Origin: Chloroflexota bacterium
Lineage (GTDB): Bacteria; Chloroflexota; Anaerolineae; Anaerolineales; Villigracilaceae
NCBI GenBank assembly: GCA_005778035.1
Contig: SXKT01000038.1
Coordinates: 1-48,668, forward strand
Direction: 5' to 3'
DNA: 48,668 nucleotides
A program made the translations under genes and the position numbers. The stretch's first letter is position 1, and each line of letters starts with the position of its first letter. Below are positions 553-37,657 of this stretch, piece after piece. Under the pieces are notes generated by a model. It made no database searches, was not told the DNA's origin, and worked only from the letters and a program-made list of their open reading frames with translations.

Positions 553-945
553 ATGAACATGCAAAATACGGACGAAAACGAAAAAACAAACCAAATCAAC
601 ATCCCGCCTGTTCCTGAGGAACTGGAATTTTCGGGTTTCCTGTTATCTACCGATTCCCAATTGTATCCGTTGCGAAAAAATGTGACCAACATTGGCCGCA
701 GTGATGAAAATGATATTGTGCTGCCAGACCCATACGTCAGCAGGCAACACGGTCAAATTCGCGCAGTTAGCGGCAGATTTATTTATTATGACCTGGGATC
801 TTCCGGTGGCAGCAAAGTAAACAATGAGCGCGCCAGCCAGGCTACATTGTCTCCCGGAGACCTGATCAGCATTGGTCGCACGACCTTGATCTTTGGTTCC
901 GACGATGAGCCGGATAGCGGCACCTCTCCCCAACCCAATATTTGA
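553..945 (+). CDS. small FHA-domain protein
   Basis: This is a 130-residue protein that is essentially one forkhead-associated domain, a phosphothreonine-binding module. The signature is GRSDENDIVLPD followed by YVSRQHGQI, supplying the Gly-Arg, Ser and His of the phosphopeptide pocket at about residues 48-67. The later Asn-Gly of the canonical fold is Gly-Gly here (DLGSSGGSKVNN). It has no signal peptide or membrane segment, so it is probably cytoplasmic. It heads a group with a second FHA gene, mtnP and a SEDS-fusion gene. The order recalls the actinobacterial FHA-FHA-rodA-pbpA neighbourhood, where FHA proteins read Ser/Thr kinase signals; no kinase is in this window. A second ATG two codons in is an equally possible start. 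Confidence 0.85.
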   Translation: MNMQNTDENEKTNQINIPPVPEELEFSGFLLSTDSQLYPLRKNVTNIGRSDENDIVLPDPYVSRQHGQIRAVSGRFIYYDLGSSGGSKVNNERASQATLSPGDLISIGRTTLIFGSDDEPDSGTSPQPNI

Positions 946-966
946 TTTGGCTATATAATTTTGCAA

Positions 967-1422
967 ATGGGAATCTTTTTGCTATTTTTGCGGGCTGCAG
1001 AAACTGCGTTTTTATATGCGTTTTTACTGCTCGTCCTTTATCTCCTTTGGAAATTTTATTCCGATGGCGCGGCCATCCCAAATCCATTTGCGCACAGGCC
1101 AGAGTTGATACTCAAGTCGGATGAAGGCAATGAGATCGAATTCTCCTCTGCCAAATATGCGGCGATGGATGTGATCATGGTTGGAAGGGGTGAGCAAAAT
1201 CATCTTATACTGCCCTCCAGCGCAGTCTCTTTAGAGCATGGCAAGATCAGCTATGAACGAAACCAGTGGTGGGTGGAAGACAATCACTCCCGAAATGGGA
1301 CCTACCTGAACGAAACGAAACTGACCACAAAAACCGCCATCCTGGATGGAGACATTTTGCGGTTTGGTGACCAAACCTTTAAAACACACATCATCGAACG
1401 GAGAACAATATGGAAAAAGTAA
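967..1422 (+). CDS. membrane-anchored FHA-domain protein
   Basis: The protein has 151 residues from the ATG at 967; a TTG two codons upstream is an alternative start. Residues about 5-28 form one hydrophobic segment, and the rest is a cytoplasmic FHA domain with VGRGEQNHLIL, SLEHGKI and SRNGTYLN, so Gly-Arg, His and Asn-Gly are all retained. This matches the layout of FhaB-type proteins: a short N-terminal anchor and one FHA domain that docks phosphothreonine peptides at the membrane. It overlaps the mtnP start by 13 bases, implying translational coupling. It most likely recruits phosphorylated partners near the cell-wall machinery encoded at 2254; this role is inferred from context. Confidence 0.85.
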   Translation: MGIFLLFLRAAETAFLYAFLLLVLYLLWKFYSDGAAIPNPFAHRPELILKSDEGNEIEFSSAKYAAMDVIMVGRGEQNHLILPSSAVSLEHGKISYERNQWWVEDNHSRNGTYLNETKLTTKTAILDGDILRFGDQTFKTHIIERRTIWKK

Positions 1423-2273
1423 CGATCGGAATTATTGGAGGCTCTGGCCTTTACGGTATGAAGGACTTGAAAAAAATCGATGAATTGGATGTTGATACCC
1501 CGTTTGGAAAAACATCCTCTCCGATTGTGATCGGCGAAATGGACGGAACCAAGGTAGCCTTTCTTGCACGGCACGGCATCGGTCATTTCATCAATCCAAC
1601 CGAAGTGAACTACCGCGCCAATATCTATGCGCTTAAAAAGATCGGTGTTAGCCAGCTGGTTTCAATCAGCGCGTGCGGTTCACTCCGCGAAGATTACAAA
1701 CCGGGTGATATCGTCATCCCGGACCAGATCTTCGATTTCACCAAAGACCGTGCCAGAAGTTTCTTTTCAAACGGGCTGGTAGCCCATATTGGTGTCGCTA
1801 ACCCTTTTTGTGCAGACCTTAGCCAAAAAGCGGTCGACGCAGTTAGCAAAACGGGCGCAACCGTTCATGCTGGTGGAACATTAATAACCATCGAAGGACC
1901 CCGCTTCTCAACCAAGGCAGAATCAAACACATTCCGCGCCTGGGGTATGTCGATCATTGGCATGACAGCATCCCCTGAAGCCTTTTTGGCGCGTGAAGCT
2001 GAAATGTGTTATTGCACAATGGCCCATGTCACCGATTATGATGTTTGGCACACTTCCAACGAACCGGTCACCGTCGAAATGGTCATTCGGACCCTCACCA
2101 ACAATACTGTCATCGCTCAGCAATCTGTGCGCAATTTGCTGGCAGGCATCGTGCAGCAACCATCCTGCTCTTGCCAGAGCGCTTTGGCAGATGCGCTGAT
2201 CACCAACCCATCCGTCATATCCGCACAGACGAAACAAGACTTGTCGATCCTGATTGAAAAATATATTCATTAA
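1410..2273 (+). CDS. mtnP: S-methyl-5'-thioadenosine phosphorylase
   Basis: This 287-residue protein is of normal length for the MTAP branch of the PNP/MTAP family. It cleaves 5'-methylthioadenosine with phosphate to adenine and 5-methylthioribose-1-phosphate, the first salvage step for polyamine and SAM by-products. Visible motifs are IGIIGGSGLYGM at the N-terminus, TPFGKTSSP and LARHGIGHFINPTEVNYRAN (phosphate and subunit contacts), TIEGPRFSTKAES, and GMTASPEAFLAREAEMCY, which contains the nucleoside-contacting Glu. It overlaps both neighbours, the FHA gene by 13 bases and the SEDS fusion by 20, so the four genes appear to form one coupled unit. An exact substrate preference (MTA versus inosine-type) cannot be read with certainty. 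Confidence 0.93.
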   Translation: MEKVTIGIIGGSGLYGMKDLKKIDELDVDTPFGKTSSPIVIGEMDGTKVAFLARHGIGHFINPTEVNYRANIYALKKIGVSQLVSISACGSLREDYKPGDIVIPDQIFDFTKDRARSFFSNGLVAHIGVANPFCADLSQKAVDAVSKTGATVHAGGTLITIEGPRFSTKAESNTFRAWGMSIIGMTASPEAFLAREAEMCYCTMAHVTDYDVWHTSNEPVTVEMVIRTLTNNTVIAQQSVRNLLAGIVQQPSCSCQSALADALITNPSVISAQTKQDLSILIEKYIH

Positions 2274-4677
2274 TTTGGCGCGCAAATCCATAAGCCGGTT
2301 GCGATCGCCGCTATTCCTGTTCGTGTTCGCGGCCGGTTTTTTATTTATTTACTCGCTGATCCTCACGTTTAGCGCGACCTTGCACCTTCAGCAATTTCCA
2401 AATGGCCTTCAGTGGAAGCATTGGATAGGGTTTGCGGGGTGGGTCATACCGGCATATTTTTTCACCCGCTTTACCTATCGCCGAACTCCGATCTTCGCTT
2501 CACTCCTATTCCCGATCAGTTCCTTCTTGTCTGGAATTGGCATTATGACCATCTGGCGGATCAACAGCGATTTTGGCTTTCGCCAATCGATCCTGTTTGC
2601 AGCCGTAAGCCTTTTTGTGCTTGGTGCGATCTCCGGCAACATTGGCCTTGAACACATCAGGCGGTATTTGGGCTGGTTATTGGCAGGCAGCCTGTTATTG
2701 ACCATCGCTACCTTGTTCGTTGGCACCAATCCATCCGGCTATGGAGCGAATCTTTGGCTGGGTTGTTGTGGGATCTATTTGCAACCATCCGAACCACTCA
2801 AATTGTCATTTTTATTAATACTCACGAACTTGGCGGCGGTAGATACCCAAAGATCGCCTTGGTCAATTCCATTGGGCATCATTGCTGTGTTATCAGTTGG
2901 CGCTATTCTGGCCCAAAAAGACATCGGAACCAGCATGGTTTTTCTGGCAATGGCCGGCGGAATTGCGGTGTACAGATGGAATAAGTGGCAGACCCTGGCC
3001 ATTGAAGCAAGCCTGCTCGCCATGGGGTTGGCCATTGCTACCAATTTTGTTCCGCTCGTACGCCAAAGGTTCGAAACATGGTTAAACCCATGGCAAGATG
3101 TAAGCGGCAACTCATACCAAACCATCCAATCGATGATCGCCATCGCGAATGGCGGATTAAATGGACGAGGGCCAGGATTGGGTTTTCCAACAGTCGTACC
3201 GGTTGCTCATTCCGATTTTATTTTTACCGCTATCAGCGAAGAGCTTGGCATCATTGGCGCTCTTGCGGTATTGATGCTTTTCTTTTTACTGGTATTTATC
3301 GGTTTTGAGATCGCCAAATTTACCCCGGACCGCTGGGAAAAATACATCGCGGCAGGCGTTTCAATCTATTTGGGCGCCCAGGCATTGACCATTATCGGCG
3401 GCAACCTCAATCTCATACCGCTTACCGGCGTTCCTTTGCCTTTTTTGTCGTACGGGGGTTCATCCCTGGCTGTGTCTTATGGCATGGTCTTGTTGCTCTA
3501 TTTTATTGGGTCCCGGCCTCCAGCCGCAGCCTTGGCTCCAACTCCATCCAGCAGCGAAAAAGGACTCTTTTTCCTCTTTGCCAGTGGGTTTCTCGTCTGC
3601 GCTTTCGGTTTGGGATACTGGGGAGTCATTAGGAATGACCAACTGCTGAAGAGAACAGAGAACCCGCGCAGGGGAATTTTGGAATCTGTAGCACAACGCG
3701 GCGCGATCCTCGACCGGGCAAACGGGGCGATCGTATCCAGCATCGGCTCCCCGGGAAGCTACCAACGCAAGATCTGGATCCCATCACTTTCTCCTATTGT
3801 TGGGTACAACATACCCTTTTTTGGCCAAACCAACATTGAAGCAGCCTACGATGATCCTTTGCGAGGCGAACGTGGATACCCAGACCTGCAACTTTGGTGG
3901 AGCCATCTGGTGTATGGAAGGCCTCCTAATGGGATCAACATCCGGACCACCATCGACGCAGGACTGCAAAAAAAGTTGGTCGCATACTATGGCAACAGGG
4001 TCGGTGCGGGGATTTTGTTAAACGCCGCCAGTGGCGAACTATACGCATTGGTTTCTACCCCTTATATAAGCAATGATCAATTAGGCGCAGGTAAGGCACA
4101 ACTCCCCGAAGTTGGTGGTCCTTTGCTCAATCGTATTTCCATGGGCGTCTATCCAACCCGGATATTGAGAAATATGGCATCCGAGATCGCGCCAAAAGCC
4201 CAGGGCACTGGCCAACTTGAAGCTGAAAAATGGATCGAGACCCAACTAAAGGCAAACACTCCAAAAATTGGATTCGATGAATTGGCTTACGTTGAACCGG
4301 GTACTTTTACGCCCCTCATGGCAGCCAGGCTATTTTCAGCCATCAGCAATGCCGGCACCTGCGCAGGGCTGCAATTTGTTAGCGCGGTAGAATCACCCAC
4401 TGAAGGTTGGGTGATCTTGCCGGCATCACAGATGACCCCTGAATGTATCCCGCCTGTTAAGGCGGCTTCCTTTGCGGAAAAACATTCCACCTCCAGCAGC
4501 CTGTTTTGGAGCGCAACCGGGTATGATACCAAAACCAACACGACCTTTTATGTTGCCGGTACAATGCCTGAATGGAATGGGACACCGCTTACGTTACTGG
4601 TATTTTATGAAAAACCCTACTCAAGTGGGGTGAAACTTGAATTGGACAGGTTATTTTTGGAATTATTGACACAATAA
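2254..4677 (+). CDS. SEDS (FtsW/RodA) glycosyltransferase fused to a degenerate class B PBP domain
   Basis: The 807-residue protein has two parts. Residues about 1-430 form a multi-pass SEDS domain with all hallmark motifs: LQPSEPLK, QKDIGTS, SYQTIQSMIAIANGGLNGRG, AHSDFIF (conserved Asp) and PLPFLSYGGSS. SEDS proteins polymerise glycan from lipid II. Residues about 460-807 resemble PbpA-type class B PBPs (RGAILDR, IVGYNIPFFGQ, IEAAYDDPLRG, TIDAGLQ, SGELYALVSTP). Where the Ser-x-x-Lys motif should follow 'YP' the sequence reads YPTRILRN, and no SxN or KTG motif is visible, so transpeptidase activity is probably lost. The start is TTG at 2254, overlapping mtnP; TTG at 2275 is an alternative. 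A terminator follows. Confidence 0.88.
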   Translation: MKNIFINLARKSISRLRSPLFLFVFAAGFLFIYSLILTFSATLHLQQFPNGLQWKHWIGFAGWVIPAYFFTRFTYRRTPIFASLLFPISSFLSGIGIMTIWRINSDFGFRQSILFAAVSLFVLGAISGNIGLEHIRRYLGWLLAGSLLLTIATLFVGTNPSGYGANLWLGCCGIYLQPSEPLKLSFLLILTNLAAVDTQRSPWSIPLGIIAVLSVGAILAQKDIGTSMVFLAMAGGIAVYRWNKWQTLAIEASLLAMGLAIATNFVPLVRQRFETWLNPWQDVSGNSYQTIQSMIAIANGGLNGRGPGLGFPTVVPVAHSDFIFTAISEELGIIGALAVLMLFFLLVFIGFEIAKFTPDRWEKYIAAGVSIYLGAQALTIIGGNLNLIPLTGVPLPFLSYGGSSLAVSYGMVLLLYFIGSRPPAAALAPTPSSSEKGLFFLFASGFLVCAFGLGYWGVIRNDQLLKRTENPRRGILESVAQRGAILDRANGAIVSSIGSPGSYQRKIWIPSLSPIVGYNIPFFGQTNIEAAYDDPLRGERGYPDLQLWWSHLVYGRPPNGINIRTTIDAGLQKKLVAYYGNRVGAGILLNAASGELYALVSTPYISNDQLGAGKAQLPEVGGPLLNRISMGVYPTRILRNMASEIAPKAQGTGQLEAEKWIETQLKANTPKIGFDELAYVEPGTFTPLMAARLFSAISNAGTCAGLQFVSAVESPTEGWVILPASQMTPECIPPVKAASFAEKHSTSSSLFWSATGYDTKTNTTFYVAGTMPEWNGTPLTLLVFYEKPYSSGVKLELDRLFLELLTQ

Positions 4678-23198: not shown

Positions 23199-24323
23199 TT
23201 AGATTTCAATTACATTTCGGCGCATTACAACGCTTTGAACCAAGCCAATCGCCATCAGATTGGCCAGCAATGAACTGCCGCCATAACTTACAAATGGCAA
23301 TGTCAGCCCGGTTGCGGGCAACATGTTCAAGTTTACACCAAGATTCACAAACGCCTGAAAGGCGATGAGTGTCGCAACTCCATAGGAGATGAGCGAGCCG
23401 TAAATATCGCGTGAAAGCCGGGCGGCACGCACACATCGAAAAACAACGAACAAGATCAACAATATGATCAGCATTGCTCCAACAAAACCCAGCTCGTGGG
23501 CGGTAGTGGAGAATATAAAATCGGACCACCTCACTTTGAGGAAACGCAATTGCACCTGGCTTCCTTGCCCATACCCTTGTCCAAAAAAACCGCCTGAGCC
23601 GATCGAGATGAGGGCTTGGTTAATATTAAAGATCTCGCCATAACGGGCATTTGGATCCGGGGCGACAAAATTCATGATCCGGTCGAGTTGGTATTGCTGG
23701 ATGATCTCGTACTGAACCAAAATTGGAAAAGTAACCGCGAGGATAAGCGCGCCAACAATGGCGTACGTAGCCAACAAGCGAATGGAAACGCCTGAAAACC
23801 ATAACAAAACAAACCACAGCACCAGCAATACGATCGAGGTACTCAAATTGGGTTGCAAGATCACCCAAACTGTGATTCCCATCGCCATCAAAAAACTGCG
23901 CAAGATCCAGCGGGTCTCGTGCATTTGATGGAAATGGACCACAAAAAAATGCGACAGTGTCAAAATTAATACGATCTTGGCAAATTCGGATGGTTGAATG
24001 AACACCAAGGTGGTTTGAAACCAACGCGCAGAACCAAACATGGCCGCGCCAATAACGTTTAGGGCTAACAGGACCAAAATAATGCCAATATAGAGTGTGT
24101 TGCTGAGGCTTGACCATACCCGGTAATCAATATTGGCCATGATCAACATCGCAACCAAGCCAATGCCGGCAAAGATCATTTGCCGCTCTACCAAAGGAGT
24201 GGTTTCGGTCAATTCAATATTGCCGGCAATGGCAGATCGGATCATGGTCACGCCCAAGATAACCAGGATGACCACCGCCCCAAGCAACCAAAAATCAAAG
24301 AAACGCCAAAGGCCGCTTTTCAT
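23199..24323 (-). CDS. rodA: rod-shape SEDS glycosyltransferase RodA
   Basis: The 374-residue protein has about ten membrane helices, a typical RodA length. Motifs are FIQPSEFAKI, FNINQALISIGSGGFFGQGYGQG, VRWSDFIFSTTAHELG (conserved Asp) and LPATGLTLPFVSYGGSS. The block usually written LQPDLGT reads LQPNLSTS here, an Asp-to-Asn and Gly-to-Ser change in a normally conserved loop. RodA polymerises peptidoglycan for side-wall growth with PBP2, whose gene (mrdA) lies upstream in the same block. It follows minE by 40 bases. The FtsW alternative is less likely given the mre/mrd context. Confidence 0.92.
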   Translation of the reverse strand: MKSGLWRFFDFWLLGAVVILVILGVTMIRSAIAGNIELTETTPLVERQMIFAGIGLVAMLIMANIDYRVWSSLSNTLYIGIILVLLALNVIGAAMFGSARWFQTTLVFIQPSEFAKIVLILTLSHFFVVHFHQMHETRWILRSFLMAMGITVWVILQPNLSTSIVLLVLWFVLLWFSGVSIRLLATYAIVGALILAVTFPILVQYEIIQQYQLDRIMNFVAPDPNARYGEIFNINQALISIGSGGFFGQGYGQGSQVQLRFLKVRWSDFIFSTTAHELGFVGAMLIILLILFVVFRCVRAARLSRDIYGSLISYGVATLIAFQAFVNLGVNLNMLPATGLTLPFVSYGGSSLLANLMAIGLVQSVVMRRNVIEI

Positions 24324-24363
24324 GAATTCTTACCTTCGTAAATTTTGTTCTGGATGAATGAAA

Positions 24364-24621
24364 TTACTGCTTTTTTCCTGAATGCGGCCTAATGGGAATA
24401 TCTGCCACCAATTTTTGCGAACGGCCTTGCTGTTCGATCTCGATCCGCACACTGGAAGGGTCTATGTCAATGTGTTTAGAAATGGCATTGATGATGTCAT
24501 CCTTCAGTAATTCAATGGTCGCGGAATTCAGGTTGACCCGGTCGTGGATGAGGACAAGTTGAAGGCGGTTTTTGGCGTGATTGGCGGAAGGCTTACCAAA
24601 AAGGTTGTCAAGAAAACCCAT
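24364..24621 (-). CDS. minE: cell-division topological specificity factor MinE
   Basis: The 85-residue protein starts at the ATG at 24621, two bases after the minD stop. It begins MGFLDNLFGKP, the membrane-targeting amphipathic start, followed by NRLQLVLIHDR (the MinD-contact strand or helix) and LLKDDIINAISKHIDIDPSSVRIEIEQQ, the conserved topological domain. MinE stimulates MinD ATPase and drives MinCD away from mid-cell. A longer frame upstream runs into minD and can be ignored. With minC and minD it forms a complete set. Confidence 0.94.
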   Translation of the reverse strand: MGFLDNLFGKPSANHAKNRLQLVLIHDRVNLNSATIELLKDDIINAISKHIDIDPSSVRIEIEQQGRSQKLVADIPIRPHSGKKQ

Positions 24622-24623
24622 CG

Positions 24624-25418
24624 TCAATTCCCTTTCCCTATTTGCATCAACTTGTCCCACAATGTATCCACATCCAATTTCATGAACGGAACTTGTTCTC
24701 CGCAAAGCCGCTTGGCGATATTGCGATACGCGACGCCCGAACGCGACTTTCCTTCGATGGCCAAAGGTACGCCTTTATTGGCAGCGATGATGGTGTTTTC
24801 GTCTTCTGGAACGATGCCGATCACTTCTACGCGCAATAGATCGTAGACATCGGCAACAGAAAGCATATCTCCACGCTGAACCATATTTTGCTTAATACGG
24901 TTCAAAATCAAATATGGCGGTTTTTTCTCTTCTGCTTCGATCAGTCCAACTACCCGGTCAGCATCACGAACGGCCGACATTTCAGGGTTGGTAACGATCA
25001 CGATAATGTCGGCTGGGGCAATTGAGTTTTTAAACCCACGCTCGATACCTGCCGGCGAATCGATGATGATCCAGTCAAATTCAGCCCTTAGTTCGTCGCA
25101 AAGTCGGATCATGTCGCTGGGGGAAACGGCGTTTTTGTCGCGTGTTTGTGCCGCGGGTATCAAAAATAATTCCGGAAATCGCTTGTCGCGGATCATCGCC
25201 TGGCGGATACGGCATCGGCCTTCCACAACATCCACAATGTCGTATACGATCCGATTCTCCAAACCGAGGATCACGTCCAGGTTGCGCAAACCAATATCGC
25301 CATCAATACAGACAACTTTTTTCCCATCATTGGCAAGCGCTACCGCAATGTTGGCTACGGTGGTGGTTTTCCCTACACCGCCTTTTCCGCTGGTTACTGT
25401 TAAAACATTTGCCGCCAT
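24624..25418 (-). CDS. minD: septum-site ATPase MinD
   Basis: The 264-residue protein starts at the ATG at 25418, with GGAG eight bases upstream. The deviant Walker A motif is SGKGGVGKTT near residue 10, and switch motifs CIDGDIGLRNLD and IIDSPAGIE follow. The C-terminal amphipathic membrane helix is short (MKLDVDTLWDKLMQIGKGN). MinD-ATP binds the membrane, recruits MinC and is released by MinE, so division is restricted to mid-cell. The minC stop lies 25 bases upstream. Confidence 0.95.
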   Translation of the reverse strand: MAANVLTVTSGKGGVGKTTTVANIAVALANDGKKVVCIDGDIGLRNLDVILGLENRIVYDIVDVVEGRCRIRQAMIRDKRFPELFLIPAAQTRDKNAVSPSDMIRLCDELRAEFDWIIIDSPAGIERGFKNSIAPADIIVIVTNPEMSAVRDADRVVGLIEAEEKKPPYLILNRIKQNMVQRGDMLSVADVYDLLRVEVIGIVPEDENTIIAANKGVPLAIEGKSRSGVAYRNIAKRLCGEQVPFMKLDVDTLWDKLMQIGKGN

Positions 25419-25443
25419 TGTGTTCACTCCAAATTCATCATAA

Positions 25444-26121
25444 TTAAATCGGTTTCCAGGGTTCGGCAACCAGCTGCCCGTCTACAATCTTTACCATTTC
25501 CGGTTTGGCGGTATCCTTGGTCTTTGGAGGGGATACCGCGATCAATTCGCCTATGCGCAATTGGGTAGGATGCAGATCCAAAGCGCAAATGGCCACGGCG
25601 TTATCGCCTTCCTTGCCGGCATGCACAAATCCACGCACCCGACCCCATACCATAATGCTACCGCCGGCGATCACTTCGGCGCCTGAATTGACATCACCGA
25701 GGATCACCACATTGCCCGCATGCTCAATTCTGGCACCCGATCTGAGGGTTTTGTCGATCCACAACGCATGGCTTGCCAAATCTGCCGCAGCTTCGCTTTT
25801 GGGGTACCGTTTTACAGGGACAGGCAATTGGGTGGCCAAACCCAATAATTGGGCAGAATTGACCGTTACAGCCGATGTGCTGAGAACTGTGTCCAAATTC
25901 ACACCCAGGTCGGCCAGTTTGTCGCGCAAGGTGCCAACTTCGCGGGATTTTAAAGACCGGTCGCCCACATCAACAACGAATCGGGCGCCTTTGAAAAAGG
26001 CTTGTTGCTTTTCCACCTGGGAATAGAGCGATTGGCTGAGCACATTCCAATCCGCCTCGCCGAAGGTCACCAAAAGGCCTTCTTTTATACCCTTGATCTG
26101 CACCAATGAGGATTCTGCCAT
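25444..26121 (-). CDS. minC: septum-site determining protein MinC
   Basis: The 225-residue protein starts at the ATG at 26121 (MAESSLVQIKGIKEGLLV). The N-terminal domain that blocks FtsZ assembly covers about residues 1-110. The C-terminal beta-helix that binds MinD covers about 125-210 and shows the repeated glycine pattern NVVILGDVNSGAEVIAGGSI followed by VWGRVRGFVHAG. The length matches the family. It lies 23 bases downstream of mrdA, which links division-site control to side-wall synthesis in one transcription unit. Confidence 0.93.
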   Translation of the reverse strand: MAESSLVQIKGIKEGLLVTFGEADWNVLSQSLYSQVEKQQAFFKGARFVVDVGDRSLKSREVGTLRDKLADLGVNLDTVLSTSAVTVNSAQLLGLATQLPVPVKRYPKSEAAADLASHALWIDKTLRSGARIEHAGNVVILGDVNSGAEVIAGGSIMVWGRVRGFVHAGKEGDNAVAICALDLHPTQLRIGELIAVSPPKTKDTAKPEMVKIVDGQLVAEPWKPI

Positions 26122-26144
26122 ATCAATAAAAATTATAGCATCAA

Positions 26145-28475
26145 TCAATTGCCCAACTTTGCCTGGTCAATTTCTTTTAACTCAAAATACGCATCCAATA
26201 CTCGGCGCACCACCGGGCCCGCGACACTTGCACCTTCTCCGCCATTGTACATAAATGCCACAACGGCGATCTCTGGAGCATCAAATGGGGCATACGCCAC
26301 TGTCCAGCTATGGGTTGGCCAGTTTCCAAAAGTACAACGATTGTTCTTTTGCGCCACGTCATCACAATATTCCGCCGTGCCGGTCTTTCCGGCAGCCGGG
26401 ATCTCGAACGGCGTAAAGATGCCTTCGTAAACCCCTGTGGCCTTAAACACCGCGTTCAAGGTTCCGGTTGGAGATGCCTCGATCGCCAGGCGCATGCCTT
26501 CTTGGATGCTTTGCACAACGAATGGAGAAACAGTTTTTGTGTTTTCGGTTGCCGTACAATATGCCCCATCGCAAAGATAATCCTTGATCATCGGGTCGCG
26601 GGTAATATCCCACTTCATGTTATCTACATGCGGTGATACTTGCCACCCGCCTAACCGCTCTAAAACCTGTCCATTGGTATCAACCCCGCACCAACCGGCT
26701 GCGCTTTTGCCATCTTGTGCTTCGAGCTGGCATTTGGAAAATTGAACCTGGTTGGTAATGCCATATCCGGTATCGCACCAAAGTTGTTCACCTTGCTCGT
26801 TGGTGAGTTTGTCCTGGCATTGGCGATATAAATTTCCGTCAAAATCTCTCCACACTTGCACCACTTTGCCTTCATCATCCAGGATCTCGCGGATCAGGGT
26901 AGGTTGCATCAATTTGCCGTCGTTGGCAATGGTTGATGCGGACATCAACACCTGCAATGGTGTGGCGATCACGTAGCCTTGCCCCACACTGGCGATGTAC
27001 GTATCACCCGTAGACCAATTTTCACCGCGGTTGATACGCTTCCATTGTGGATATGGAATGAGCCCTTTGGCTTCTCCTAGTAATTCCAAATAGGGTGGTT
27101 CATCGTAGCCCAAAGCACGGGCATATTCCCTCAACCGCTCAATTCCAAGCCCCTGTTTGATCTCATCCTTGTAACCACCACCCAGTTTGTAAAAACAAAC
27201 GTTGCTGGAATATGCGATGCAGCGCAAGAAATCGATCGTTCCAAAACCGTCCCGATTCCAATCCACAAAGGTGCGCTCGTTGCCGGGATCACTGGGTGAA
27301 AAGGATTCTGTCAGGCGCAGTTCGCCTGGAGCCTGAATCACCTGATCCAATGTAACGATGCCTTCGTTGAGGGCTCCGGTTGCGGTGGCCAACTTAAAAA
27401 CCGAACCTGGAGGAAATTGGTCGGACACCGCATGGTTCAACAACGGTTTGGCCGGTTCTTCAAACAATTGGTTGTAATAATAAGCCGGTATCACCCGGGC
27501 GAAACGATTATTTTCGTACGTGGGGTACGATGTCATGGCAAGGATCTCGCCAGTGGTGGGATTCATGGCGATTACAGCCGCAGTGGTGATGCGGATCTCA
27601 TTGAAATACGTATTCCAATAATCGATCTCCCCCAGCATGGCAGCTTCGGTAGCCTTTTGCAGCCGCGTATCGATGGTGGTGACCAGGTTTAAGCCTGGCT
27701 TTGCATCCAGCGGCGGAGCCAGGTTGCGTATCTCCTGTCCTGCTACATCCCGCTCTACAACGCGCTTTCCCGGAACACCGATCAACAGGTCCTGGAAAAA
27801 TGCTTCCAATCCAGAGTAACCTACCTTGTCCCGGTTAATTTGGAACCCTTGTTTGGCATACAGTTCCTGGTCTCGCGATGGGATTGGGCCGAGGAAACCA
27901 ATGATATTGGATGTGAGCGAGCCGGTTGGGTACTCGCGGATCGGGTCAACCTCTATCTGTACTCCCGGCATATCCATTGATCTCTCATTTACGATCAACG
28001 CGGTTTCCTCACTCACGTTGCATGCCACGCGCACAGGGCTGTATGGCGCCAATGAATTTTGGAGGTCTACAAATTGGGCGATGCCGGGTCCGGGGACGCA
28101 CGCCGATACCAGTTTTGCCTCATCCAATGTGCCATTATTTACGGGAACATTGATAATGGCGGACAATTTACGAAAAACCTCCTGAATGTCGCCTTCATCA
28201 TTGGGCAGGTCGGCGGGGGTGATGATCACGTTATACGAAGCGGCATTGCGGGCCAGGATACTGCCGTTCCGATCGTAAATAATGCCACGGCTGGGCGGAA
28301 TACTGATCTCAAGGGTCCTGTTTTCATCAGCTTGGGCAGCCCTGATGTTGTATTCCAGGAACTGCAACGTAACCAACTTGAAAACCAAGGCGCCCACACT
28401 CAGCAAAATAATGGCGACAAAAACCGTCGCGCGCCAATTTTGAATTTGGAATTTGGGTGAAAAAGTAAAATTCAT
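26145..28475 (-). CDS. mrdA: penicillin-binding protein 2 (class B transpeptidase) with Cys-rich insertion
   Basis: The 776-residue protein starts at the ATG at 28475, whose ATGA overlaps the mreD stop. One membrane helix lies at about residues 15-37, then the PBP-dimer region (SRGIIYDRNGSILARN). The transpeptidase motifs are complete: Ser358-Val-Phe-Lys, Ser423-Ser424-Asn425 and Lys697-Thr-Gly. It cross-links side-wall peptidoglycan outside the membrane with RodA. Between SxN and KTG, residues about 550-645, is an insertion with six cysteines (553, 567, 582, 596, 635, 640), and two more follow KTG (704, 714). PBP2 is usually 600-650 residues long, so the insertion largely explains the extra length. 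Confidence 0.94.
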   Translation of the reverse strand: MNFTFSPKFQIQNWRATVFVAIILLSVGALVFKLVTLQFLEYNIRAAQADENRTLEISIPPSRGIIYDRNGSILARNAASYNVIITPADLPNDEGDIQEVFRKLSAIINVPVNNGTLDEAKLVSACVPGPGIAQFVDLQNSLAPYSPVRVACNVSEETALIVNERSMDMPGVQIEVDPIREYPTGSLTSNIIGFLGPIPSRDQELYAKQGFQINRDKVGYSGLEAFFQDLLIGVPGKRVVERDVAGQEIRNLAPPLDAKPGLNLVTTIDTRLQKATEAAMLGEIDYWNTYFNEIRITTAAVIAMNPTTGEILAMTSYPTYENNRFARVIPAYYYNQLFEEPAKPLLNHAVSDQFPPGSVFKLATATGALNEGIVTLDQVIQAPGELRLTESFSPSDPGNERTFVDWNRDGFGTIDFLRCIAYSSNVCFYKLGGGYKDEIKQGLGIERLREYARALGYDEPPYLELLGEAKGLIPYPQWKRINRGENWSTGDTYIASVGQGYVIATPLQVLMSASTIANDGKLMQPTLIREILDDEGKVVQVWRDFDGNLYRQCQDKLTNEQGEQLWCDTGYGITNQVQFSKCQLEAQDGKSAAGWCGVDTNGQVLERLGGWQVSPHVDNMKWDITRDPMIKDYLCDGAYCTATENTKTVSPFVVQSIQEGMRLAIEASPTGTLNAVFKATGVYEGIFTPFEIPAAGKTGTAEYCDDVAQKNNRCTFGNWPTHSWTVAYAPFDAPEIAVVAFMYNGGEGASVAGPVVRRVLDAYFELKEIDQAKLGN

Positions 28476-28978
28476 AGGTCGTCGGCCTGGGGCGTTGCCC
28501 ACATTGCAAAGTCACGCATCACCGAGTTGACGGGGATGGCAACCAGCATATTTAGTAATGTTGAGGGTAAAAAAACGGATCCAGCCATCATTAGGATATC
28601 AAGGCCAAACCCTGATTGGAACCAAAGGTACAAGATCGTCACCGCGCCATCTATCAGGCTGGCGATCAAAATTGAAAACATCAATGCGATCACCGGTACC
28701 TGCCACGTTCCACGGGCAACTTTCCTGGCCAAATAAGCCGAGCCAACAAATACAACCAAAGGGATCATAGGTGGAATGGCGGAAATGTAGCTGAAAAACA
28801 AGGTGGCAAATACAGCCCAATACAAATGGTAACGGTCGGTTGAATTTAAACTCCAGCTAACCAAAATAAGCAGGGTAAGATTTGCAAAACCGGAGAGGAC
28901 CTGCAACTCATTCAGGATGGAGGTTTGCAGTATCAGCGCCCCCAACAGTAGAGGTGCCATCATTAAGGTGCGCATCAT
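28472..28978 (-). CDS. mreD: rod-shape determining membrane protein MreD
   Basis: The 168-residue protein is very hydrophobic with five or six membrane helices, the expected size and profile of MreD. Sequence similarity in this family is weak, so the call rests on hydropathy and position between mreC and mrdA. MreD is an integral part of the elongasome linking MreB/MreC to the wall synthases. It overlaps both neighbours by four bases (ATGA-type junctions), which implies coupled translation. Confidence 0.85.
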   Translation of the reverse strand: MMRTLMMAPLLLGALILQTSILNELQVLSGFANLTLLILVSWSLNSTDRYHLYWAVFATLFFSYISAIPPMIPLVVFVGSAYLARKVARGTWQVPVIALMFSILIASLIDGAVTILYLWFQSGFGLDILMMAGSVFLPSTLLNMLVAIPVNSVMRDFAMWATPQADDL

Positions 28979-29808
28979 TGCCCCGTTGTTAATGGCGTGA
29001 TGTCGATGGACTTAAAGTTGCGGATGACCATAACCAATTTGAGGTTCCTAAAATCCACGACCGGTTGAACCGTGGCCTCCTGGAACAGGTCTGAGTCTTT
29101 TTTCTTAACATTGATGATCTGACCGATGATGAGGTCGGATGGATATCCACCGCTAATGCCACTGGTCAGTACCACTTCACCAGGCTCAACGATGATATCC
29201 TGGCTAAGCAGCTCGATCAGCAAATCGCCGTTGGGAGAACCCCTCAATACGGCGTCCCTTTGGGCTTTGTCCAGCCGAATATTGACCACCGACGCGGAAT
29301 CAGTAATGAGCTGCACCCTCGCGGCATCGCTGATCACAGCATCCACCCTGCCAACAAGGCCTTGCTCGGTGACGACCGGCATTCCCTTGAGAATTCCATG
29401 ACTGGAACCTTTATCGATGATCAGATACCTCAAAAACGGGCTTGGATCGCGGCCAATAACATTGGCTGCCTGGAAGGTATTTTCAGGGTTGGTGCGTGAG
29501 TATTTAACCAGCGCGGCAAGGATCTCCCCTTCTTCGACGCTTTTCTGCAAGGTGACGACATCTGCCTGCAACCTTGCCAGTTCGGACTCTAATTGGGCGT
29601 TGCGTTGCCGCAAGGTTACAACATCTCTCGGGATGGTAAAAAATTCCTTGAGCACTACAAATCGGGAATATACAAATTCCTGTGCATCGACCATGCCCGA
29701 TGTGATGGAGATTGAAATGCTGCCCAATCCACCGCTAAGCGCAAGAATGATGAGGCCGAGGGACAAGCCGATGATGATGGCGGGTTGAAAATTTTGGTTT
29801 TTTTTCAT
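28975..29808 (-). CDS. mreC: rod-shape determining protein MreC
   Basis: The 277-residue protein starts at the ATG at 29808. It has one N-terminal membrane helix (about residues 9-30), a coiled coil at about 55-95 (RQRNAQLESELARLQADVVTL), and the extracytoplasmic beta-barrel domain with GRDPSPFLRYLIIDKGSSHG and GLVGRVDAVISDAARVQL. MreC scaffolds PBP2 and activates it. It follows mreB by 22 bases. The ribosome site is weak, suggesting coupling to mreB translation. A longer frame upstream overlaps mreB and lacks the MreC signature, so it was not used. Confidence 0.93.
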   Translation of the reverse strand: MKKNQNFQPAIIIGLSLGLIILALSGGLGSISISITSGMVDAQEFVYSRFVVLKEFFTIPRDVVTLRQRNAQLESELARLQADVVTLQKSVEEGEILAALVKYSRTNPENTFQAANVIGRDPSPFLRYLIIDKGSSHGILKGMPVVTEQGLVGRVDAVISDAARVQLITDSASVVNIRLDKAQRDAVLRGSPNGDLLIELLSQDIIVEPGEVVLTSGISGGYPSDLIIGQIINVKKKDSDLFQEATVQPVVDFRNLKLVMVIRNFKSIDITPLTTGQ

Positions 29809-29830
29809 TTTTGGCCCAACAAACGGGCAA

Positions 29831-30901
29831 TTACCCGGAATGCCGGGTAGAACCGCGCTCCAAGCCGACCAAATAATGGCGCATTCGTTCAAAATCGTTC
29901 AACACCACACCCGTACCACGCGCCACACACGTCAGCGGGTCTTCGGCCTGCCAAACCCTCAAATGGAGTTCATCAGCCAAACGATCTGCAAAGCCTTGCA
30001 GCAACGCGCCGCCACCCGCCAGGCATATTCCCGTGTCCATCAGGTCGGAGATAACCTCCGGTGGCACCTCATCCAGAGCGTCGCGAATGGTATCGATGAT
30101 CACCTGAATTGAACCACTTAGGGCATCCCTGATCTCAACGGAGGATACCTCCAGCGATTCTGGCAAACCTGTAACCAGGTTTCTGCCACGAGCTTCGACG
30201 GTTTTTTCTTGCGGCAAGGGATACGCTGACCCAATTGCCACTTTAATTTGTTCGCCAACTCCCTCGCCGATCAGCAAGTTGTACTTGTTGCGGATGTACT
30301 GGACGATGTCCTGGTCCATTTCATCGCCGGCAACCCGCAAAGATCGCGAAACCACAACACCACCCATGGCTACAATAGCTACTTCGGTGGTACCACCGCC
30401 AATATCAACCACCATCGAACCACGTACATCGCCGATCGGCAAGCCAGCACCTAACGCGGCAGCAATTGGCTCTTCGATCAGGTAAGCCTCTCGTGCGCCC
30501 GCAGAACGTGCGGCATCGTAAACTGCCCGTTTTTCAACTTCTGTTACACCGGCCGGTATGCCAATAACCACTCTGGGCTGGGGCAACGGGACAATGGTTT
30601 GTTCATGCACCTGGTTGATAAAGTAAGTAAGCATTACCTGGGTTACATCAAACTCAGAAATAACCCCGTCGCGCACCGGCCGCAAGGTAAGAAAATTCCC
30701 GGCTGTCCGGCCAACCATCTCCTTGGCTTTTTGGCCAACGGCCAGCGGTTCGCGGGTGCGTTTATCGATCGTAACCCAGGATGGCTCGTTGATGACGATG
30801 CCCCTGTTACGAACATATACCAAAGTATTCGCGGTTCCAAGGTCGATCCCTATATCAAGGGAAAACCTACCAAGCAACCAACTGATAGGATTGAATGCCA
30901 A
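29831..30901 (-). CDS. mreB: actin-like rod-shape protein MreB
   Basis: The 356-residue cytoplasmic actin homologue has phosphate-1 motif DIGIDLGTANTLVYV, phosphate-2 motif VDIGGGTTEVAI and adenosine motif GICLAGGGALLQG. MreB filaments guide the wall-elongation machinery encoded downstream. The start is set at TTG 30901: GGAG lies 7 bases upstream and the product then begins LAFNPISWLLGRFS, close to typical MreB starts. ATG codons at 30937 and 30934 overlap a strong extended -10 box, so transcripts from it would lack them. If another promoter is used, the 368-residue form is possible. It diverges from degV. Confidence 0.94.
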   Translation of the reverse strand: MAFNPISWLLGRFSLDIGIDLGTANTLVYVRNRGIVINEPSWVTIDKRTREPLAVGQKAKEMVGRTAGNFLTLRPVRDGVISEFDVTQVMLTYFINQVHEQTIVPLPQPRVVIGIPAGVTEVEKRAVYDAARSAGAREAYLIEEPIAAALGAGLPIGDVRGSMVVDIGGGTTEVAIVAMGGVVVSRSLRVAGDEMDQDIVQYIRNKYNLLIGEGVGEQIKVAIGSAYPLPQEKTVEARGRNLVTGLPESLEVSSVEIRDALSGSIQVIIDTIRDALDEVPPEVISDLMDTGICLAGGGALLQGFADRLADELHLRVWQAEDPLTCVARGTGVVLNDFERMRHYLVGLERGSTRHSG

Positions 30902-30908
30902 ATTGCTA

Positions 30909-30912
30909 CTCC
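30909..30912 (-). promoter_or_regulatory. ribosome-binding site favouring the TTG start of mreB
   Basis: GGAG on the minus strand, seven bases before TTG at 30901. The upstream ATG codons at 30937 and 30934 have no such site. Confidence 0.5.
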
Positions 30913-30935
30913 GTGCTCCAATATTTAACTTCATC

Positions 30936-30944
30936 ATTATACCA
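30936..30944 (-). promoter_or_regulatory. extended -10 promoter of the mreB block
   Basis: TGG-TATAAT on the minus strand is a perfect extended -10 and would start transcription near 30929. The -35 region (TTAAAA-like) is weak. It is the only clear promoter I see upstream of the nine-gene run. Confidence 0.5.
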
Positions 30945-31077
30945 TTGGATGAAATTCGTTTTTTAACCACCACGGTGGCTGGTATATGGCTAACTCCGGC
31001 CAAGGCACCTGTAGTAAAATGAACCCTTATCGCAATCATAGTGTTTTATTCATTATTTCCACATTCCCGGAGGAACC

Positions 31078-35421: not shown

Positions 35422-36246
35422 ATGATAAAAATGGTGGCCATCGATCTGGATGGCACATTGTACAACAGTAAAAAAGAGATCACTGCCCCGGTAAGGCAAG
35501 CCCTAATGGTCGCGATCGATGCCGGCCTGGAGATCGTGATCATTACCGGCAGGGGAATGCTCGGCGCGGAGTTCGCCTTAAACCAGCTGGGGATAGACCT
35601 GCCCTACATCAGTTCGGCAGGGGCATCCATCCGCAGCGGTAAAGGTGGCAAATCGATCGGTTCCTGGCCATTTTATTCCCCTGCAGAAATGGATAAGTTG
35701 ATCGGTCATTGTGAACGATTTGACATTGCCATGCTGGGCGAATCCACATCAGGTTCGATGATCTGGTACGGCAGCGAAAAACGGTATGGTATATTGGACC
35801 CCAAGACCCGGGCAGAGATCGAATTGGGATTGGTTAGCAATGATCCCAGAAAAGATCTCGACCAACCCCTCTTAAAAATAACCCTTGGGGCAGACCTGCC
35901 ATTACTAAGGCGCACTTGTGAGTTTATGGAACAAGAATGCCCGTCTTTGTTTTATGTGGTCTCAAGCCACATTTATATGGACGCAACCCACAAGCAGGTC
36001 AATAAAGGTTTTGGGCTGCTGCAGTACGCGGCATATAAAAATGTCGAAGCGGCCGAAGTAGCAATGATCGGCGACCAGGAGATCGACCTGATGGCATTTG
36101 AAGTGGCCGGACTGTCGATCGCGATGGAGAATGCGGTGCCTGCCGTAAAATCAGCCGCTGACCTGGTCGCGCCATCCAACGATGAAGATGGTGTTGCATG
36201 GGCTTTACAAAAAATTCTTTCGGATAACAACAATGGCCATATCTGA
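35422..36246 (+). CDS. HAD-superfamily (Cof-type) phosphatase
   Basis: The 274-residue protein has the HAD catalytic motif AIDLDGTLYNS (nucleophile Asp and the following acid), then ITGRG, a Cof-type C2 cap domain, a Lys in the HKQVNKGFGL block (motif III), and the metal-binding IGDQEIDLMAFEVAG. Such enzymes remove phosphate from sugar phosphates, flavin or nucleotide substrates, and the substrate here is not readable. The methyltransferase-glycosyltransferase gene starts inside its last codons (14-base overlap), so it may serve the same sugar pathway as the next two genes. Confidence 0.92.
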   Translation: MIKMVAIDLDGTLYNSKKEITAPVRQALMVAIDAGLEIVIITGRGMLGAEFALNQLGIDLPYISSAGASIRSGKGGKSIGSWPFYSPAEMDKLIGHCERFDIAMLGESTSGSMIWYGSEKRYGILDPKTRAEIELGLVSNDPRKDLDQPLLKITLGADLPLLRRTCEFMEQECPSLFYVVSSHIYMDATHKQVNKGFGLLQYAAYKNVEAAEVAMIGDQEIDLMAFEVAGLSIAMENAVPAVKSAADLVAPSNDEDGVAWALQKILSDNNNGHI

Positions 36247-37657
36247 CAAACAAGCTGAGCATTTGGCAAAACGGGCAGCGCATTGGAACGCGATCTCCAT
36301 TCAGAAATATGACGGTAGCCTATTCAGCAAAGCCTATCATCACAGGCTGGGTGAATTATACAAATACCAGGTCGGCGCCGGCTTGCGTGTATTGGAGATC
36401 GGCTGCGGCCAAGGCGCTTTGCTCGCCTCGTTGAAGCCATCCCGCGGGGTGGGTGTTGATATCGCTTCCGAGATGGTTTCAGCTGCGGTCAACAAATATC
36501 CCCATTTGCACTTTATGGTCGCTGACGCCCACTCCTTCAAACTGGATGAAACTTTTGATGTGATCATCCTCTCCGATCTTATCAACGATGTTTGGGATGT
36601 ACAATCCATTTTGCTGCACATCCGCCAATACTGTACCCCATCCACCCGGATCATATTTAATTATTACAGCCGTGTTGTGCAGCCTTTGCTAAGCCTTGGC
36701 TCCAGCATGGGCCTGGCGCAAACACTGATGGCCCAAAACTGGTTTACCCCCGCCGATTTGGAGAATATTATTGCCTTGGCTGGCTACGAACAGGTGTCCC
36801 ACTCGCAAGAGATCCTGTTGCCTGTTCCTTGGATCGGCACTTTTTTTAATCGGTTTTTGGTAAAGGTTTGGCCATTTTCGGCCTTCGCGTGGACCAACCT
36901 GACAATCGCCCGCCCAGTTAGCACAGATGCCCAGCCAGAATTATCGGTGAGTATCGTTGTGCCCGCACGCAATGAAGCCGGCAACATCGAAAATGCCTTT
37001 ACCCGATTGCCGAAATTTGGCAAAAGCCAGGAGTTGATCTTTGTTGAAGGAAACTCCACGGATGATACGTATCAGGTGATTGAAGCCGCAATTGCCAACC
37101 ACCCTGAAACAAAGGCCAGCCTGTATAAACAGCCCGGAAAAGGCAAGGCAGACGCAGTACGGGTAGGCTTTGATAAAGCAACCGGCGACATCCTGATGAT
37201 CCTCGATGCCGACCTGACGGTTCAGCCAGAAGACCTGGGCCGATTTTACAACGCCATCCGGGATGGCAAGGGCGAGTTCATCAATGGGGTGCGCCTGGTG
37301 TACCCCATGGGAGACCAAGCCATGCGCTTTCTAAACCTGGTCGGAAACAAATTCTTTAGCCTGGCATTCACCTGGCTGCTTGGCCAACCCATAAAAGATA
37401 CCTTGTGCGGCACCAAGGTGATCAGCCGGGAGAATTACCAAAAATTGGCAGCCAATCGGGCTTATTTTGGCGAATTCGATCCATTCGGAGATTATGACCT
37501 GATCTTTGGAGCCAGCAAACTGAACCTGAAGATCATCGATATGCCGATCCGGTATCAGGACCGTACCTATGGCAGTACCAATATCGACCGATGGCGCCAC
37601 GGGGCATTGCTATTTAAGATGCTCTTCATTGCGGCAAAAAGGTTAAAATTCACCTGA
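36233..37657 (+). CDS. SAM methyltransferase fused to a family-2 glycosyltransferase
   Basis: The protein has 474 residues from the ATG at 36233. Residues about 1-215 are a class I methyltransferase (VLEIGCGQGALLASL, the SAM loop; GVGVDIASEMV; FDVIILSDLIND). Residues about 230-474 are a GT-A glycosyltransferase 2 domain (VSIVVPARNEAGNIENAF, FVEGNSTDDTY, KGKADAVRVGFDKATGDIL, the metal-binding ILDADLT, and DTLCGTKV), resembling polyprenol-phosphate sugar transferases such as dolichol-phosphate mannosyltransferase. No membrane helices follow, so it is likely a soluble or peripheral enzyme. The fusion suggests linked sugar transfer and methylation in a cell-surface glycan pathway. Its stop overlaps the wecB start (TGATG). 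Confidence 0.88.
   Translation: MAISDKQAEHLAKRAAHWNAISIQKYDGSLFSKAYHHRLGELYKYQVGAGLRVLEIGCGQGALLASLKPSRGVGVDIASEMVSAAVNKYPHLHFMVADAHSFKLDETFDVIILSDLINDVWDVQSILLHIRQYCTPSTRIIFNYYSRVVQPLLSLGSSMGLAQTLMAQNWFTPADLENIIALAGYEQVSHSQEILLPVPWIGTFFNRFLVKVWPFSAFAWTNLTIARPVSTDAQPELSVSIVVPARNEAGNIENAFTRLPKFGKSQELIFVEGNSTDDTYQVIEAAIANHPETKASLYKQPGKGKADAVRVGFDKATGDILMILDADLTVQPEDLGRFYNAIRDGKGEFINGVRLVYPMGDQAMRFLNLVGNKFFSLAFTWLLGQPIKDTLCGTKVISRENYQKLAANRAYFGEFDPFGDYDLIFGASKLNLKIIDMPIRYQDRTYGSTNIDRWRHGALLFKMLFIAAKRLKFT

Follow-up and report, generated by a model that had tools for sequence, protein, structure and literature searches.

The gene at positions 2254..4677 (+ strand) of the window, the whole 48,668-nucleotide stretch of Chloroflexota DNA analyzed here, encoded a SEDS polymerase fused to a class B PBP (bPBP) half that had lost its catalytic motifs; this half probably serves as the polymerase's own non-catalytic activator, with the glycan being cross-linked in trans. 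SEDS polymerases require their bPBP and, to our knowledge, activation and cross-linking reside in the same active partner in the known systems, so that the two functions are hard to separate. In the present protein, the switching-on of a polymerase seems to have been separated by nature from the cross-linking of the wall, and evolution kept the result across many families. The chances are slightly better than even that a large part of one class (probably Anaerolineae) runs one of three SEDS polymerases permanently uncoupled from transpeptidation by its partner, with the natural pseudo-PBP being a dedicated β-lactam-insensitive activator and another enzyme performing cross-linking in trans. Single-ORF SEDS-PBP fusions (PMC10449877) and engineered dead bPBPs were already known; no natural catalytically inactive SEDS partner was found in the literature searched, which covered open-access and not subscription papers.

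The fusion was a single unbroken frame of 807 amino acids with a TTG start (possible alternative starts: 2275, 2299, and 2323), and its anatomy as a SEDS protein joined to a dead PBP, proposed in the initial annotation, was fully borne out. The SEDS (FtsW/RodA-type) glycosyltransferase half (residues 1-418; 2254..3507, + strand, as for all parts below) matched FTSW_RODA_SPOVE (PF01098) at residues 105-418 (E = 1e-62). D321 in HSDFIF (3214..3216), the putative catalytic Asp, which we take by motif to correspond to RodA D255/FtsW D275, was invariant in 46/46 fusions, as was E180. FtsW D275 has been described as a putative catalytic residue (PMC7614612). Two arginines that are otherwise conserved in SEDS were replaced in the window protein (Ile at 349 and Asn at 386), which formed long branches in the tree together with its sister; both points count against the reading proposed above. 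The two halves were joined by a variable linker (residues 419-432; 3508..3549), with the lowest mean top-residue frequency of the regions (0.44), which was followed by the PBP transmembrane (TM) helix (residues 433-459; 3550..3630; a helix in the AlphaFold2 model), a PbpA-type pedestal/dimerization domain (residues 460-562; 3631..3939), which gave a sub-threshold match to PF21922 at residues 482-562 (E = 1.3e-4), and a degenerate transpeptidase domain (residues 563-807; 3940..4674). No match to the Transpeptidase family (PF00905) was found in the 807 residues. When intact PbpA from Clostridia was used as the guide for locating motif positions, ILRN occupied the former SxxK position (residues 637-640; 4162..4173), Ala-Thr-Gly the former KTG position (residues 754-756; 4513..4521), and the SxN region was deleted. 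The only S..K strings in the fusion were SSEK at 433 and SGVK at 791, both off the active-site position; KTG and KSG were absent, and the scan detected no other usable SxxK or KTG in the PBP half.

A one-chain AlphaFold2 model using 46 homologues (mean pLDDT of 88.7 and pTM of 0.87) confidently predicted an FtsW-like half and a half resembling M. tuberculosis PbpA. Residues 72-424 of the model were aligned with FtsW (8p1u; Z = 35.4, rmsd of 2.8, 328 residues), and residues 474-807, from the pedestal onward, with PbpA (3upn; Z = 31.2, rmsd of 3.1, 327 residues); Z values of the PBP half against the PbpA structures (3upn, 4jbf, and 4mnr) were 29-31, and the profile match to 4mnr had an E value of 1e-56. 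In the model and the 3upn alignment, the PBP half had the architecture of a class B PBP (TM helix, pedestal, and transpeptidase fold) with part of a lobe, that of SxN, missing. The fusion was similar to RodA-PBP2 and FtsW-FtsI (6pl5, 8tj3, 8bh1, and 8p1u) in the conserved SEDS Asp and in the TM helix and pedestal of the bPBP, but differed in being one polypeptide, in having a partner without transpeptidase residues, and in its reduced transpeptidase domain. Although M. tuberculosis PbpA and its relatives have the same fold and belong to the same sequence family as the PBP half, their structures include β-lactam acyl-enzymes, whereas the fusion has lost SxxK, SxN, and KTG.

The same fusion was present in most of 60 relatives searched, the nearest one found (L007 of genome G005) being 44% identical, while a few in the same order had separate SEDS and PBP frames. 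In a wider survey, the class and phylum were searched with the PBP half as the profile, and loci were fetched and their motifs classified, only for genomes in which the best match reached the PbpA-type N-terminus. Both halves were present at 118 loci (113 from Chloroflexota, the same phylum, and 5 from Clostridia). The PBP half was dead in 65 fusions and in 15 loci with separate genes, and intact in 38 loci, all with separate genes; no fusion was intact. These counts apply to the loci so selected rather than to the class as a whole. The catalytic motifs were lost in all 65 fused homologues. Homologues with intact SxxK/KTG, named in the initial annotation as counting against an inactive PBP half, did exist in other lineages, but PbpA was always a separate gene there, indicating that the ancestor was active and leaving the claim unrefuted. 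Six of the genomes sampled within the same class (G089, G093, G118, G121, G139, and G156) retained an intact separate PbpA, and a fused dead copy occurred in G185, placed in another class. An oddity of the family of the window genome was rejected because the state was order-wide and was shared by most of the sampled class members having this type of gene. Small complete Chloroflexota genomes (0.9-2.2 Mb), which resembled the wall-less Dehalococcoidia, yielded no match. A separate PbpA relative of 380 amino acids (L093 1628-2767, genome G065), in which SxxK was gone and KTGT retained, is likely an intermediate of inactivation.

In trees built from SEDS and the PBP part upstream of SxxK, the dead forms grouped. 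Constraining all dead rows together gave a likelihood slightly above that of the free tree (p-AU = 0.59). The AU test did not reject a single origin of death that included G185; the PBP may have been inactivated only once, in which case the G185 copy would be due to transfer or to deep descent. The fused/separate state switched 7-8 times on the tree, versus 2-3 times for intact/dead, suggesting that a PBP, once dead, is readily fused to or split from its SEDS partner. Since some dead PBPs were separate genes, fusion was unnecessary for the dead state, and fusion as the cause of the loss had no support from the tree; an independent-pairs test of fusion versus death contained too few independent changes. 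The gene order FHA, FHA, phosphorylase, SEDS, and PbpA was also found in some intact loci (e.g., L108), indicating that dead and intact forms occupy the same locus.

In the window, this locus comprised an FHA-domain protein gene (553..945, + strand; PF00498, E = 2e-17), with homologues in many orthologous loci, a second one with a hydrophobic N-terminus (961..1422, + strand; PF00498, E = 3e-16), and a purine-nucleoside/MTA phosphorylase-like gene (1410..2273, + strand; PF01048, E = 3e-48), which overlapped the start of the fusion by 20 bp. A phosphorylase gene was beside the SEDS gene (e.g., at 1410-2273 of the window and in L079, L086, L108, and L112) in 44/65 fused dead, 13/15 separate dead, and 5/38 intact loci, some of which were incomplete. 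Elsewhere in the phylum, the orthologs of the fusion were neighboring SEDS and PbpA genes, that is, a SEDS protein with its cognate bPBP. The data did not support the earlier description of the fusion as a second, specialized system; an FHA/SEDS/PbpA locus occurs phylum-wide, and the fusion is the form that it takes in this class. The fused dead form was one of three SEDS genes in all 12 inventoried genomes that carried it and were at least 97% complete. In the closed single-contig genome G018, two of the three SEDS genes each had an intact PBP gene within ~5 kb, and the third was the fusion; a lone bPBP and two class A PBPs were also present.

A built-in activator combined with cross-linking by another enzyme was the mechanism with the best support, and we infer the following course. 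The PbpA part (TM helix, pedestal, and emptied transpeptidase shell) would dock on the SEDS half in the way that PBP2 docks on RodA, and would hold it in a polymerizing state while being itself unable to form an acyl-enzyme. Glycan strands would be cross-linked in trans, most likely by an intact MecA/PBP3-type bPBP, or alternatively by class A PBPs, PBP2/FtsI, or YkuD L,D-transpeptidases. The TM segment of PBP2 suffices to stimulate RodA, and polymerization is also carried out by a synthetic RodA-PBP2 fusion (PMC10449877); FtsW requires complex formation with its PBP (PMC9426605). Natural single-ORF SEDS-PBP fusions, with the Rhodococcus RHA1 genome as the reference, were mentioned in the former study (PMC10449877) and, as here, have SEDS and PBP in one ORF; unlike here, their PBP part was treated in that text as a transpeptidase. 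The fusion may also be likened to B. subtilis PBP2B S309A, a catalytically dead bPBP that supports division in a structural role when PBP3, a MecA-like bPBP, is present to supply the activity (PMC5656894); however, S309A was made in the laboratory as a point mutation in a separate protein, whereas the dead state of the fusion is natural and conserved. In S. aureus, aberrant septa appear upon loss of PBP1 activity, suggesting that such uncoupling would be harmful without a substitute enzyme. The proposed mechanism predicts that a TM helix and pedestal are enough as an activator, and makes the necessity of coupling polymerization and cross-linking in one complex directly testable; the fusions are also compact one-chain, presumably β-lactam-insensitive proteins for structural work.

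As to the substitute enzyme, the lone bPBP of the window genome (L036; G000:C30:39419-41395; 744 amino acids) was of the MecA_N type with intact motifs, and may be regarded from its sequence as a candidate cross-linker. Of the 40 dead genomes, 38 had a recognizable MecA_N bPBP, compared with 18 of the 40 intact ones (Fisher p = 1e-6), a lineage-confounded difference; within the same class, the numbers were 38/39 and 4/6, respectively. There were 2-10 YkuD L,D-transpeptidases per dead genome and 0-10 per intact genome (none in 16/40), which was likewise lineage-confounded. Because intact genomes also ranged up to 10 copies, an expansion of YkuD was rejected as an explanation and is permissive only. 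Since the loss may have happened once, the MecA_N and YkuD associations are not independent.

Alternatively, the transpeptidase shell may be a non-catalytic scaffold or sensor that recruits partners (conceivably class A PBPs, a MecA-type PBP, or FHA proteins) or binds stem peptides/nascent wall, with activation of the polymerase being secondary, which we consider rather unlikely. The retained shell fold, the conserved N626, R627, and Y633, the FHA genes nearby, and the structural role of B. subtilis PBP2B independent of catalysis (PMC5656894) are consistent with such a function, as is a conserved Cys pair. The SxN lobe was deleted in 52 dead rows including the window and retained in 32, in which S and N of SxN were never both kept. 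The former SxN read xC[P/Q/T/S] in 32/32 of these lobe-keeping PBPs (e.g., L044, L054, L073, and L112); the central Cys was present in 32/32, and 30/32 had another Cys upstream of it, an arrangement shared by some intact PbpA. The pair looks like a retained disulfide, which points to maintenance of the fold, not of catalysis, and counts in favor of the built-in activator as well. On the other hand, no partner was identified, and the conserved residues also occurred in intact PbpA, so that no new role is needed for them.

Retention of a fold also bears on whether the PBP part is a passenger being lost from a SEDS half that works alone. This is unlikely, although the transpeptidase part was relaxed, the SxN lobe was deleted in the 52 sequences, and motif erosion appeared stepwise, as in L093 with KTGT but not SxxK. 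Conservation of the pedestal (0.69) matched that of SEDS (0.70), compared with 0.48 for the remaining transpeptidase part, and the model was well packed. The dN/dS values (NG86) were 0.08-0.27 in the dead transpeptidase part, with synonymous sites saturated in some pairs. For the pedestal, the values that could be computed were 0.04-0.22. One SEDS value, that of pair L086/L087, looked like an out-of-frame artefact and was excluded. Transpeptidase pN exceeded pedestal pN in 9/9 dead pairs versus 1/4 intact pairs. Purifying selection acts on the dead half, but is more relaxed in the transpeptidase part than in SEDS and the pedestal, and the low dN/dS together with the faster pN in dead pairs indicates that the fold was kept and catalysis was not, in favor of a built-in activator. 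Separate dead PBPs persisted as genes in 15 loci, which also speaks against a decaying relic.

It is very improbable that the domain still transpeptidates with another residue as the nucleophile: S601 and Y633 were fully or nearly invariant, but are located upstream of the SxxK site and were also present in intact PbpA, while the remnant had no conserved Lys or Cys and the SxN lobe was gone in the family type of the window. An assembly or annotation artefact has a negligible chance despite the fragmented, 64% complete assembly of the window genome, since the nearest relative and dozens of further independent genomes, including single-contig G018, have the same architecture.

The window also contained a normal RodA/PBP2 pair, as the initial annotation had noted: RodA, the second SEDS gene of the window (23199..24323, - strand; PF01098, E = 1e-81), and a PBP2-type bPBP (26145..28502, - strand; PF00905 and PF03717) with intact SVFK/SSN/KTGT motifs, alongside MreC and MreB. 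Genes for MinC and a MinD-like ATPase were located between PBP2 and RodA in this Mre cluster (23199-31039). At 36182-37657, a methyltransferase and a family 2 glycosyltransferase were encoded in one frame, which overlapped the preceding HAD-hydrolase gene.
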